Shown one piece after another: positions 11,076-17,298 of a DNA stretch of 64,000 nucleotides; the stretch's first letter is position 1, and every line of letters starts with the position of its first letter. Origin of the DNA: Heliocybe sulcata (taxonomy: Eukaryota > Basidiomycota > Agaricomycetes > Gloeophyllales > Gloeophyllaceae); contig ML213538.1 of assembly GCA_004369045.1 (NCBI GenBank), positions 1 through 64,000 of the forward strand, written 5' to 3'. The notes below the pieces were generated by a model. That model did no database searches and had not been told where the DNA came from. It saw nothing but the letters and a program-made list of their open reading frames with translations. The position numbers and the translations under genes were made by a program.

Positions 11076-11084
11076 AAGGATAGA

Positions 11085-14000
11085 TAGTGTTGTATATGGC
11101 CTGGCTCAAAGCCCAAGCCGAGCCAGGCCAAGTCCTCTCGCAGCGAGCAAAGCCAGGCCCAAGCCCTCCCAAAGCCCTGTAGTTGGGCTTGGCTTGCTCT
11201 CAGCAAGGCCAAGCCAGGCCCGGCGAGCCCGAGGCTTACATACCAAATTTGGCACACCAGACTGGAATCCGAGTCCGCCATCAATGGACCGTGATCCGAA
11301 GCGAAAATCAGTCCACGCAAGCGTCGCTTCCGCTTTGCTGGCATCCACCACGCTGTTCTCGCAGCGATAAGCGCGTTTGCTGTGGCTTCGCAAGTGAAAA
11401 GGTTAAACGGTTGGCTCAAAGAGTCTGCGTTCCTTTGATTGGATAGCATGTAAGTTTCCACTCCGTGGTTCTTCTGCTCACCTTTATCTGACCGCGACAA
11501 GTTTGCCAGGCACTGTCGATACAGTAGAAATTACCTTACAGTACTATTCCACAATAAAAGGTCTCAAGTACTAGTGTGCCTGACCATGGCCGACAGCATT
11601 GTGAAGCACGCACCGGACGGTTTCTGTGCTAGGGGTTAGACGACACCAACAAGTCCGAAACAAGAAGATGACTGCACTTCAGTTGGACCATCTGCGAGTA
11701 TCCACATGGGCATGCATGCTCACTAACCTGCTTAGTGGGTTTAGGTTAGGTAAGCTGGCTGGCCCTCGAGGACGAGATACTCATAAGGCGAGGTCAGAAA
11801 AATTGACCCTGCCAACGCGCGACTCCTGACTCACTATGAGGCCGGTGAGACCTCTCCTCGTAGCAAGCACCCCAGCGACCGTGGCAGCAAGGCCTATTTG
11901 GCATGCTCTACCGCTCATTTTCGTATTCAGCGTGCTCCCGATCCTGTCACTCATCTTGTCGAAAACCTATGGGATACGTGTCCCGCTCGGTTTCTCTAGC
12001 AGCTTCGTTGGTGCGCCCAGATTGCAAGATGGATCTTCGCAGTTTATGAACCATGCAGACTCGGTTGCGTGGCTTTTCACGGCTACCATTGTTTACAGGA
12101 ATTTTGCTATTCTGGCGCTCGGTACATTTTACTACAACAGGTCCAGGGAGTGTATATATACTTACAGTCGGGTTTTACAGCATCCTATCTTATGCCAGAG
12201 CATGTCCCCCTTCATCGACTACTTCCAGAAAGCCTGCGGACAGGTCTGCATACTCGCCGGACGCGCTCCCACATATCCAATCTTAGACTGGACCGATTTC
12301 GGCGCTTACTATGTGATTGCCCATTCACGGTCTTTATCGAGGGCACAGACAGCTGTGGTACAGTGCCTATTCGTAAGTAGTTAATTGCTATTAGTGCGGA
12401 TCCCTGCTGACCGCTGCCATCACTAGTTGCATCACGACACATGACCGCCCGTGATATTTTCAGCGCTCTGCAGGCGAGTGGTCTGATTCCGTTGTCATAC
12501 GCTGCAACCTATCGCCTCTACCCGTCTGGGAAGAACCACCCGGTATCCTTGAGTGATACACTGGGTGGACTCAGACTCGGTGATCTTTCTCACCTCCACT
12601 TGCGTGTCCTTTTGCCTGGCGGAAGTGGTAAGTGACTTTATACTGAATCGTCAGGCCTCCATATGCTCATTTTCACATGTTTAACAGCAAAGTCAGCCGA
12701 TGCTCCCACCCTTCGCACCTCCAGCCGTGTGCCAAAACCAAGCGATAAAGTCACAGATATAAATAACATTGAGCGTGCGAAAGCGGGAAGCGCCATACGA
12801 CATCCTCTGACTGAGGACAGTGACTCCGACCCTTTGACCATCACGCAAGGAGGTGCCGATCATGAATTACTGGAGACTTTGCACTCCCAGCTCGGCACCG
12901 CAGCTAATACTCTTGATGGGACGGACCGAGACGCCCAACCGAAGGCAAGTGCAAAGGGCAAGGGTAAAGGTATGTGTAAATGACCCTGTATGCCGGATCA
13001 TCCTAATGGATGAACATAGCTGCAAAGCATGCGGTCGAATCGGATAGTGACATCGAATCACGCGAAGAGACTGGCCCAAGGCACAAGAAACAAAAAGCAC
13101 CAGCCAGCACTAACGACGAGGAAGTAGTTCCTGATCTTGTCAACCTCTGCGACAGTGACACCGATGATCAAGACGAGACGGCACCTGGGCCATCGAAGCA
13201 AAAGCAGCGAGGCAAGAGGAGCATTCGGAGTAAGCCACCGCTCCATTCTCACTCGTGCTATTGACTAATACGCACATACAGAGGGCAAGGATAATCCCGA
13301 GGATGAGTTGCATGACGATGGCATGCTCAAAGACCTGGACCATATCAAGGCACCAAAGGATGAACCTCCTCGTCGCGATCCGACAGCAGATATCAAGCAG
13401 TTCTTCCACCCGGTCTACAAGCGTGCCAGGCAAGGCAAGGAAGATGCAAAAGTGCACGACTGCAAGATATGCAAGTAAGTATTTGTTCTTAAGACTTGGT
13501 TATGTATTCAACGGGGTTGATAGGAAACGTGGTGTCTCTGACTTTACCAAGGTAGCTGACTCGACGACATCACGAAGACATATGGCTTCTCATCACCCCG
13601 TGCGTTATAGATTCATAAACACTATTAATACCCGCTAACCAGTAGGCAGGTCGAGTACCGACTATGGTGCACCCAGAATGACTTCTTGTCGATGCTTGAG
13701 AAGGATATTAAGGCACGAAAGCTGCAAGCATCAAGCAAAGAGGATCAAGGCACACTGGACGGACATGTTCAGCCTCTGCCGATGAAGTCAGTGTTAGTAT
13801 ATAGTGACAAAGGCTTCAAAGACCTGGCAGTCAAGTGGCTCATCGCAGCTGATCAGGTATGTGCCTATCATCGATCTTATGGCTTTGCAACAACCTCATA
13901 CTTTTCGCAGCCAATTAGTGCTCTCGAGCACCCAGCATTTACGGCTATGATAGAATTAGCAGCAAAGGCGAAGGGGAATGGAGTGGTCATACAGCGCCGC

Positions 14001-16498
14001 GTCACCACTCGGCAGCATATCATGCAAGCCTACCACAAGCACCTTATAGGCCTATCAAAGTGCCTTAATGTATGCTCCGTCATATATAACCCTGTGTTGA
14101 TAGCTGACAGCTTCGTACATAGGGTCCCACAGTCCGCGGGAAGATCTCGCTTACGTGCGATGCCTGGCAAGCTAGTAATGTTGACGGATACTTTGCCGTG
14201 ACTGCCCATTGGATCGCAGAGAAGACAAGTGGAAACTGGTCTCTGGACGGTGCACTGATCGGATTTGTTCGGATGAATCATGCCCACCACGGGAAGCGGC
14301 TTGGCCAGGCCCTGTACAAGGTTGCCGCACGACTCAGGATAGCAGAGAAGGTTAGTAGATTCTTGCACGAAATGGATTTACGCGACTGATTATGTCGATC
14401 ATTGTAATCAGATATTCATGGTGACTTGCGATAATGCATCACCAAACCTGACAATGATGAAGGAGCTTGCGAAGCAGTTGCGCAAGCACCACAATATAGT
14501 CATGGATCCATCTGAGCGACGTATAGGGTACGCCGCATGACATATGCCGCCTACTGTAATTAAAAATTTATTCATTCTCGCACAGTTGCCTCGCCCATAT
14601 TGTAAACCTCGCCACGCAGGCTGTTATTTCCACACAGAGCAAAGCACCATATTACGACCCTCAAGACCCGGATGCTGACACTACGGAAGGTACTGCAGGG
14701 ACTCGGGACGAGGTCGGACTCGTTCGCGCTATTTCTGTTAAGGTATGTCCATGTCTTGGATCAAGTACCTTGGTTAGATGGTTTGTGCATAGGAGCGCTC
14801 CTCTAGTCAGCATAAGGAGCGCTTTCGAAACATCCAAGCTGCAGCTGGTGTCACTGTGAAGCATATCAAGACCTTGGTCATTGATATGAAGGTACGCTGG
14901 TCCTCGACTTACATGATGCTGAACAGGGCATACGAGCTGCAAGACGTGAGCACCATTCACTGTATCCAGCGTAGTATTTCGACTGAACCGTTCATGTCTC
15001 GATAGCATATATCTAAGTTTATAATGGAGCTCGGGCGCACGGCCAAAGATAGTGCGACTGCAGTCAAACTCTATTCTCTTGCACCGACTCAGGAGGAGTG
15101 GAAGCAGGTAAAACTATTCCAGAAGATCCTCGGGGTAAGCCATCACATTCTCACTCAGCTGATTAATTTGTTCACAATTGCATGAAGGATGCCGACCGCT
15201 CTCAGCAACGTTTCTCCTCGGAAACAGCACCGGCACTTCACCTTGGTATTCCTGCCCTCGAGGAGCTGCATGCTGCGTGGATCGATAGACAAGTCAAGAC
15301 TGGGTACAAGCGCTTCAATAGAAGTCTGCAAGCAGGCCTCGACAAGATTGCAGAGTACTATGACAAGACTGGGGACAATGATGCCTATGTTTTCTCTATC
15401 AGTACGTCAACTATTTTGTCTGCCTCCTGTGTTGCTTCCATCTGCTTTCTTAGTCTTGGAGCCAACGAAGCGTATGGACCACTTCCGGCAGCACTGGTCA
15501 AAGGAATTGCAATGCGAGGTTGAAGCGCTTGTGAAAGAGATTGTAGGCTTCCATATCAGTTCCTAAATCTCTCAGCTAAGCTCGTGCATTATGTCCAGTT
15601 TGAACGAACATACAACAGCCTGCACGGCGGCTCAAGCAGCCAACTCCCCGTACGAGACACCCGTCCTTCTGCTTTGCAAAGACATCCTTCAAACCTTGCT
15701 GATCTCTCGGACGACGAGGACGATGTTATCATGGCAAGCTCTACGCATACGGTAGCTCCATCCGAGGCAGCTTGGGAGATCGAGTACCGACGTTATATGA
15801 ATCTGGATGATGTCATCGAGGCTGGCACATCGACCATCCAGTGGTGGGGTGTAAGTTGGTATTACGGAGATGCTCTACCTGAACTGACCTCGATTGCAAC
15901 GGTTCAATCAGATGAATTCCCATAGGTTCCCGACATGGGCAGCACTTGCCCGGGACTACCTCGCTATCATGGCGACTTCAGTATCGAGTGAACGCGCGTT
16001 CTCGAGTGCAGGTATCACCATCACCAAGCGTCGCAACAGGCTCAAAGGGGATATTGTCGAGGCCCTTCAAGTCTTAAAGTGTGCGTACAAGAATGACCTT
16101 TTCTTTCAGGATGGTGGCCCTTCTTCTGCTACAGAAGATGCTGTGGACAGTGCAGAAGATGAAGCTGATCAAGACTTGCCTACTCCGACGTGCGGAGGGG
16201 AAGGGAACATTGATCTAGCTATCAACCTTGACTCAGAGGAGGAGGATGAAAGGGGTGATATTGACGGAGATCTTTAGCACAATATTGTAACGGATTATGC
16301 TATGTTCTATCATCACCGTACTCCGAACACGACTGCGATCATTTCTCTCATATAAAGCCCTGGGCTCAGGCCAAGCCAGGCCCGAGCCAAGCCAGAGCCT
16401 GATGAGAGGGCCTGACCTGAGGTTCGGACAAGCCCAAGCCTACCGAAGCCAGGCCAAAGCCTGCGGCTTCAGGCCAAGCCGAGCCCTCAACAACACTA
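11085..16498 (+). mobile_element. hAT transposon, about 5.4 kb, with an open transposase gene
   Basis: The ends are TAGTGTTGT (11085) and its complement ACAACACTA (to 16498). Each is followed inward by 100-150 bp packed with CCAAGCC/GGCTTGG-like motifs in both orientations (11100-11230 and 16355-16490). This is the typical subterminal structure of a hAT element. Between them lies one gene on the plus strand with all hAT signatures. The octamers next to the two ends (AGGATAGA and GTGGTGAT) are different, so no target duplication supports this pair of ends. Either the flanks were rearranged after insertion or the ends come from two elements. A 182-codon open frame at 11836-12384 overlaps the 5' exon region and is probably not a separate gene. 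Confidence 0.85.
12192..16277 (+). CDS. hAT transposase with BED finger and an N-terminal ubiquitin-like segment
   Basis: From 12427 to the stop at 16275-16277, 16 exons splice in phase with no internal stop, giving about 1,000 residues. A further 5' exon ending at 12372 joins through a canonical intron (12373-12426); its start is uncertain (ATG at 12192 or 12069). Domains in order: FTVFIEG...LSDTLGGL...LSHLHLRVLLPGG, ubiquitin-like with a terminal Gly-Gly; an acidic, Lys-rich linker; a BED zinc finger (CKIC...HMASHH); and the RNase-H-like catalytic core. The core shows LTCDAWQASN (first Asp), MVTCDNASPNLTMM (second Asp), CLAHIVNL, a VRWSSTYMML motif, and the C-terminal dimerisation block ARDYLAIMATSVSSERAFSSAG preceded by QWWG. 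The tail is acidic. It should cut and paste this element in the nucleus. Intactness suggests recent activity. Confidence 0.88.
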
Positions 16499-16594
16499 GT
16501 GGTGATGCGGTACGTTGTTCGGCGCTGTATCGTATCTGAACACGCATACTTACTACATTGACCTAGGAACTCTAACGCTGAGGTGAATCAAGTC

Positions 16595-17298
16595 ATGACC
16601 ACTCAGGCGACGAGTTCTACGGAGAATCCGACCATTACAGTGTCTTCAGCTTTATCGGTGCCTGAGTCCTCTGAAACTGCAACAGTGGCTCCTATTCATT
16701 CCGAGCAAACAAGTGGTTCATCCGCGCCGACACAGCCAGAATTGCCATTGGCTTTCTCCCAAGATCTCCAAGGAGCTTTCGCTGCCACTAAGAAACGTAC
16801 AGCAGACGAAGCCGGGCTTGATGAGCCGGTCATCGGCAGTGTCGACTCTCCTTTACTTATCCGTAAGTCTTCCTTTCAAATAGGTATTAATTGTCACTCA
16901 TTATTCAAAAGCAGTGCAAGAGCCGGCAGTGATAGACCCTATTGAGCTCTGCACAGCAGACTCTCCAAGTTCCGGCAACATGGACGTCGACCCCGATGTT
17001 GTCGCGGCTGAACCGGAGGGTCCGGTCGAGTTTTGCTGGTGCAGGGGGCCAGAGGAAGGTGACATGGTGCGATGCGACGGCCCCGACTGTGGCGAATGGG
17101 TGAGCTTATAGGTCTTAGTCTTCCGTCGTACAGCAGTTGCTGAAATTTTGCATCCCACAGTACCATTTCGGCTGCGCCGGATTACTTGATGAACCGCAAG
17201 GCGAGTGGTTCTGCTCTGATACTTGCAAGGCAAAAGCAAGCTCCTCCCTCAGAATCAAGCTTCCAGCGTTGAGCTCTAATAAGCGTGCGCGAGTTTGA
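16595..17298 (+). CDS. Small PHD-finger protein
   Basis: Three exons (16595-16862, 16915-17099, 17161-17298) give 196 residues. The N-terminal half is a Ser/Thr/Pro-rich disordered region. The C-terminal half is a PHD zinc finger with the Cys4-His-Cys3 order: CWC, MVRCDGPDCGEW, YHFGC and GEWFCSDTC. PHD fingers of this kind read the histone H3 tail, often Lys4 methylation, and the WYHFGC...WFC pattern is close to that of ING/Cfp1-type fingers. A short basic tail (NKRARV) ends the protein. The gene starts only 97 bp outside the right end of the hAT element and points the same way, so its promoter may lie inside or be replaced by the transposon. The ATG at 16595 is preferred over the upstream GTG. 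Confidence 0.8.

Follow-up and report, generated by a model that had tools for sequence, protein, structure and literature searches.

A hAT transposase of Heliocybe sulcata with a ubiquitin-like domain ending in Gly-Gly behind a probable membrane hairpin

We analysed a window of 64 kb, the start of contig C36 (172 kb) in the 31.6-Mb, 51-contig genome of Heliocybe sulcata, and found in it a hAT transposase whose parts follow one another in the order hydrophobic hairpin, ubiquitin-like domain ending in PGG, RVPKPSDKV block, acidic and basic linker, finger, and hAT catalytic and dimerisation regions (Table 1). This layout, with hydrophobic segments, ubiquitin-like domain and transposase in one frame in two lineages, is well supported. 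Our preferred explanation, to which we give a probability of roughly 40%, is that the nuclear part of the transposase is preceded by a membrane hairpin of two helices and by the ubiquitin-like domain with its terminal Gly-Gly, and that a membrane would retain the transposase until it is freed. Insertion of the hairpin, its topology and the tethering of the transposase are what we infer from sequence properties, and release of the transposase from the membrane is speculative.

Table 1 Features of the hAT element in the window
Feature	Position	Strand	Details
Whole hAT element	11085..16498	+	5,414 bp; 8-bp flanks aggataga (left) and gtggtgat (right)
Left terminal inverted repeat	11085..11106	+	TAGTGTTGT...; 9 bp perfect, 22 nt 77% complementary to right end
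Transposase gene	11836..16277	+	18 exons, 17 introns of 49-61 nt, 1,169 residues; open in window copy
Exon 1: basic N-terminus and both hydrophobic segments	11836..12121	+	
Hydrophobic segment 1 (probable transmembrane helix), residues 24-42	11905..11961	+	19-residue mean hydropathy 2.45; C17 relic 2.21
Hydrophobic segment 2 (probable transmembrane helix), residues 77-95	12064..12120	+	19-residue mean hydropathy 1.58; C17 relic 2.04
Basic stretch between hydrophobic segments and ubiquitin-like domain	12181..12323	+	
Ubiquitin-like domain, first part (FTVFIEG...GTVPI)	12324..12372	+	
Intron 2, within ubiquitin-like domain	12373..12426	+	GTAAGT...TAG, 54 nt; same column and phase in C17 relic
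Ubiquitin-like domain, remainder	12427..12623	+	Gly-Gly at 12618-12623
Linker (exons and introns)	12624..13385	+	Conserved RVPKPSDKVxDxNNI block, then acidic and basic clusters (HKKQK, KQRGKRSIRKGK)
BED-like zinc finger (C-x2-C ... H-x4-H)	13386..13685	+	Exons 6-8; motif in both lineages
First presumed catalytic aspartate (TCDAW)	14159..14161	+	Conserved in C17 relic
Second presumed catalytic aspartate (TCDNASPN)	14430..14432	+	Conserved in C17 relic
hAT dimerisation region with SSERAFS	15909..16079	+	PF05699; presumed catalytic glutamate 15990-15992
Right terminal inverted repeat	16477..16498	-	...ACAACACTA

The gene model was built by hand on GT-AG sites, from the ATG at 11836 to the stop at 16277; the donor of intron 1 is weak in the window copy (GTACAT). 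Introns as short as these, 49-61 nt, are in keeping with a fungal gene. Two further copies of the element were available for comparison. Copy B lies on the same contig (C36:153179-158592, minus strand) and is 98.97% identical to window positions 11085-16498, with 56 substitutions and no gap over 5,414 bp. Its protein differs at 27 residues, of which two are stops, and GT and AG are kept at 17/17 introns. The other copy is a diverged relic on contig C17 (C17:647109-651348, minus strand), with 18 exons and one internal stop in 1,109 residues, so that the comparison of lineages made throughout is one of two lineages within one genome. The hAT part is 72% identical between the window copy and the relic (371 columns, stop position left out). 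The introns of the relic were placed by hand with the window model as guide. All 17 have GT-AG ends and the phases seen in the window, including the 12372/12427 junction, and 14 of the 17 fall in the same alignment column, the remaining three being off by 1, 26 and 4 columns and lying in or beside the variable linker. Because the sites were chosen by hand with the window as guide, the agreement in phase is partly built in; what is not built in is that usable sites exist at every intron place of the relic, leaving only one stop.

The ubiquitin-like domain comprises residues 144-225 and is split by intron 2. The original prediction had proposed an in-phase splice from 12372 to 12427, and this agrees with the gene model: the bases are as it described, and removal of the 54-nt intron yields FTVFIEGTDSCGTVPI joined to LASRHMTARDIFSALQASGLIPLSYAATYRLYPSGKNHPVSLSDTLGGLRLGDLSHLHLRVLLPGG. 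The junction also finds its counterpart in the relic, where a GT-AG intron at the matching place and phase gives GTVSI/LASPETMARE against GTVPI/LASRHMTARD in the window. Its further reading of SGAK directly after the Gly-Gly has to be corrected, as the next intron (12628-12687) makes this SAK. The central proposal, that a ubiquitin-like segment ending in Gly-Gly belongs to one open protein with the finger and the hAT transposase, was borne out in both diverged lineages. PGG closes the domain in each of them, giving it the C-terminal Gly-Gly of ubiquitin-like modifiers at a position internal to the protein, and variable sequence starts directly after it. The domain is 52% identical between the window copy and the relic, and differences at the three codon positions number 28/24/58 over 82 codons (third versus second p = 1.1e-4). 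This third-position excess indicates that selection has acted on the protein sequence. No dN/dS ratio is given for the domain, whose synonymous sites are saturated.

Resemblance to ubiquitin was assessed with ubiquitin sequences from the same genome. Global alignment of the domain to the genome's own ubiquitin scored 32.0 for the window copy (shuffle mean -20.7, sd 9.0) and 26.5 for the relic, and 0/2,000 shuffles reached the respective score in each lineage. None of the 1,719 open-frame stretches of 82 residues in the window reached 32.0 (best 19.5). A profile-profile comparison with four ubiquitin-family sequences of the genome gave a score of 17.3 over residues 13-75 (hhalign probability 3.7, P = 0.011); 0/300 column shuffles attained this value (best shuffle 17.0), and when 69 segments were slid over the protein, gap-rich ones having been left out beforehand, the two overlapping the domain ranked first. 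With an hhalign probability of only 3.7, the sequence signal by itself is weak. Searched against Pfam, in line with the HMM check suggested earlier, the domains of the two lineages gave no family at E<=10, and a PF00240 search of the whole genome gave 29 matches that did not include the domain. A longer piece of the relic matched only DAAF9_N in Pfam, below its cut-off (E 0.31). Sequence searches of the PDB retrieved no ubiquitin, only weak matches to a G-protein beta subunit (E 0.12) and an aldolase/racemase (E 1). Elsewhere in the genome (G000:C9:1097301-1097854; L034, L036) two stretches resembling ubiquitin lie about 150 bp from each other, one with an unusual ending, STLHLGG; they represent a host gene or pseudogene.

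Structure prediction, at low confidence, suggests a ubiquitin fold. The query consisted of 109 contiguous residues, of which 18 following GTVPI are intron-coded, with three aligned sequences. The resulting read-through model is of low confidence (mean pLDDT 56.3, pTM 0.51), with residues 1-41 below 50, later blocks at 65-83 and the last at 53. A Foldseek search of the PDB with this low-confidence model returned 841 matches at E<=10 and 0 at E<=0.001 (best E 0.011), with target TM-scores of up to 0.67 among the matches listed. By title, 50/50 of the matches listed, from the total of 841, were ubiquitin, SUMO, NEDD8, UFM1, other ubiquitin-fold proteins or their complexes. On the strength of this model and search, a ubiquitin (beta-grasp) fold of residues 144-225 is probable, not proved.

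The domain had been placed at the N-terminus of the transposase. The fusion itself stands; the N-terminal position does not, since about 143 residues precede the domain in both lineages, comprising two hydrophobic segments and a conserved basic stretch that the earlier reading had missed. The frames of both lineages open with an ATG two codons past an in-frame stop. A start at the ATG at 12441, named in the original prediction as a refutation, was considered and judged unlikely, because exon 2 is conserved as protein with a strong third-position excess and because the nearest ATG of the relic lies in another alignment column. Exon 2 is 58% identical to the relic over 53 residues, the last few of them within the ubiquitin-like domain, and for residues 103-143 the codon-position differences are 16/8/32 over 41 codons (p = 9e-5). 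Exon 1 is less conserved, with 28% identity, codon-position differences of 49/37/53 over 87 (p = 0.057), dN 0.81 and dS 1.39. Given this low identity and weak third-position excess, the case for exon 1 rests mainly on kept hydropathy and frame.

From their hydropathy, both hydrophobic segments are probable transmembrane helices. They are the only 19-residue hydropathy peaks above 1.2 in the window protein; the relic has a third, of 1.26, in its hAT part. AlphaFold placed helices at residues 19-45 and 66-94 with low confidence (mean pLDDT 56.5, pTM 0.27). Counts of basic/acidic residues before, between and after the helices are 3/0, 3/2 and 9/4 in the window copy and 4/0, 1/2 and 9/2 in the relic. 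The positive-inside rule relates such flanking charges to topology, and by that rule both ends of the protein would lie on the cytosolic side. The domain reading of the original prediction is thus probably right yet incomplete, as a probable membrane anchor ahead of the domain changes its likely function.

The downstream part of the protein has the properties of a hAT transposase. PF05699 matched the spliced protein with E 9.1e-17 (61.1 bits against a cut-off of 21.4) and E 1.5e-13 at genome level. The motifs TCDAW, TCDNASPN and SSERAFS are present in both lineages, and by comparison with hAT transposases we take their D, D and E to be the catalytic residues. The C-x2-C ... H-x4-H motif upstream we take to be that of a BED finger. 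At E<=1, Pfam contributed nothing for the spliced protein beyond PF05699 and Rua1_C; the latter alone covered the finger stretch, below its cut-off (E 0.19), and no BED family was matched. As the motif was thus recognised by eye, the finger is called BED-like only. Between the Gly-Gly and the finger, basic clusters occur in both lineages.

The ends of the element are likewise those of a hAT transposon. Inverted repeats of TAGTGTTGT are found at both termini, and the relic, whose 5' end was not found, terminates in CCAACACTA. The left end of the element occurs at two places in the genome, both of them element copies. Duplicated target sites of 8 bp are present, but their repeats are split over two copies: the window copy has aggataga on the left and gtggtgat on the right, the order is reversed around copy B, and neither copy alone has matching flanks. 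The exchanged repeats lie at window positions 11077-11084 and 16499-16506 and at C36:153171-153178 and 158593-158600, and the flanks of the two copies are unrelated beyond the 5,414-bp element. Such an exchange would arise if the inverted copies had recombined and thereby flipped the segment of about 140 kb that separates them; an erroneous join in the assembly would give an identical picture.

Several further observations concern the element and its surroundings. Among the 56 differences between the window copy and copy B, 53 are transitions, and 49 of these 53 lie in CpG. If all were C-to-T, they would be one-sided on the contig strand (47 G-to-A versus 6 C-to-T), a bias that may reflect deamination favouring one strand, or sequencing error, at methylated sites. 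Clusters of AAGCCAGGCC-type repeats near both ends, at 11109-11226 and 16362-16486, are possible candidates for transposase binding sites. Just downstream of the element, an open frame at 16884-17111 encodes a cysteine-rich stretch, FCWCRGPEEGDMVRCDGPDCGEWVS, presumably PHD-like.

In the explanation that we favour, the N-terminal hairpin would insert into a membrane, leaving both protein ends in the cytosol (or nucleoplasm), and so hold the transposase away from bulk chromatin. The ubiquitin-like domain would fold on the same side of the membrane as both ends. The DNA-binding and catalytic part would become active once freed, and basic clusters of its own, similar to nuclear import signals, lie just downstream. 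An enzyme that cuts DNA has to get to chromatin, so one anchored in a membrane would need either to be released or to act at the nuclear membrane. The likeliest route of release would be for a host protease of the ubiquitin or ubiquitin-like type to cut the protein at the Gly-Gly or close to it; a cut after the Gly-Gly would be the simplest. The more specific proposal, a natural split-ubiquitin-like switch in which a transposase made at the membrane is freed by a host ubiquitin-type protease cutting after an internal domain, we consider doubtful.

Ubiquitin itself has contact positions at Ile44, Val70, Arg72 and Arg74. The window residues aligned by eye with these four are Tyr, Arg, Leu and Pro, and with the contact positions changed, ordinary ubiquitin proteases may not accept the domain. 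The changes at Ile44, Arg72 and Arg74, by the same alignment, speak against a standard cleavable ubiquitin and lend some weight to a different role, in which the uncut domain docks factors of the host ubiquitin system (the proteasome, Cdc48/p97 adaptors or membrane ubiquitin ligases) and the membrane-held transposase is degraded or extracted from the membrane, as are other membrane proteins with ubiquitin-like domains. Degradation proteins such as Herp, TMUB1 and Dsc3 are known to combine a ubiquitin-like domain with membrane segments. However, a pure docking domain would not need a Gly-Gly, which here marks the exact end of the domain in both lineages with variable sequence next to it, and we regard such docking as somewhat unlikely.

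The kept Gly-Gly is also left unexplained if the hairpin instead directs the transposase to the inner nuclear membrane, to work there uncut on chromatin at the nuclear edge with the ubiquitin-like domain as a spacer or protein contact. The charges that put both ends on the cytosolic or nucleoplasmic side are compatible with this arrangement, and the downstream basic clusters could serve as import signals for it; we nevertheless think it unlikely.

The distribution of the domain bears on whether the upstream exons belong to the transposase at all. At least nine PF05699 matches are present in the genome, three of which are the element copies. In 9.9-kb stretches around the other six hAT loci, tblastn with the domain gave nothing below E 0.15, and a scan of the hAT strand of these six for a hydrophobic-GG motif gave one match (L018), unlike the domain. 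We counted this absence against our preferred explanation. Along with the weak constraint on the membrane exon, it fits the upstream exons being a captured host piece or an alternative N-terminus, with translation of the working transposase beginning further inside the gene and the ubiquitin-like part marginal to transposition. No separate host copy was seen: searches of the genome with exon 2 (E<=10) and exon 3 (E<=1) returned the three copies of the element and nothing else. This and the strong third-position excess in exons 2 and 3 argue against a captured piece or an alternative N-terminus, which we consider improbable. That the segment resembles ubiquitin by chance and is a small alpha/beta domain of another kind, as the missing Pfam and PDB sequence matches and the low hhalign probability would allow, is very improbable in view of the shuffle tests and of the ubiquitin-fold proteins or their complexes that make up all 50 listed matches of the fold search.

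Beyond this genome, scans with two short peptide patterns for each part gave, in viral contigs, 22 pattern matches for the DDE part and 10 for the N-terminal part, and in bacterial and archaeal contigs 42 and 188, with 0 confirmed in every case; as short-pattern scans of viral, bacterial and archaeal DNA, these have no bearing on how frequent the architecture is in fungi. Among the matches listed from open-access titles and the starts of abstracts, none described a ubiquitin-like domain in a hAT transposase.

With hAT DNA transposons (PF05699, Dimer_Tnp_hAT) the element shares short terminal inverted repeats, 8-bp target repeats, the D-D-E residues, the dimerisation region and a Cx2C...Hx4H finger, and it adds to them the two hydrophobic N-terminal segments and the ubiquitin-like domain. 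The bait of the split-ubiquitin membrane two-hybrid system consists of a membrane segment, a ubiquitin piece ending in Gly-Gly and a DNA-binding protein. The order of parts is that predicted for the transposase; the bait, however, belongs to an artificial assay, and a similar natural function of the transposase is conjectural. Nrf1, a membrane-bound transcription factor, parallels the transposase as a DNA-binding protein that may be membrane-held; its anchor is different and it has no transposase. FUBI-S30 is a processed N-terminal ubiquitin-like fusion whose cleavage is shown (PMC10611586). It too has a ubiquitin-like domain ahead of another protein in one frame, but there the domain is N-terminal, whereas in the transposase it is internal, behind hydrophobic segments, and any cut is hypothetical. 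Transposon proteins tied to the ubiquitin system are described for Ginger1 transposons, which carry OTU or Ulp1 (PMC2836005), and for Helitrons, which carry OTU or VTD (PMC9741609). In contrast to these, which bring a ubiquitin or SUMO protease, the transposase carries a probable ubiquitin-like fold instead.

A ubiquitin-like domain and a probable membrane anchor within a transposase would be a new form of gating of a DNA transposase. If release needs host proteases, transposition would be linked to protein-quality or stress pathways, and if the split-ubiquitin-like switch is true, transposition would be tied to the condition of the host's ubiquitin system.
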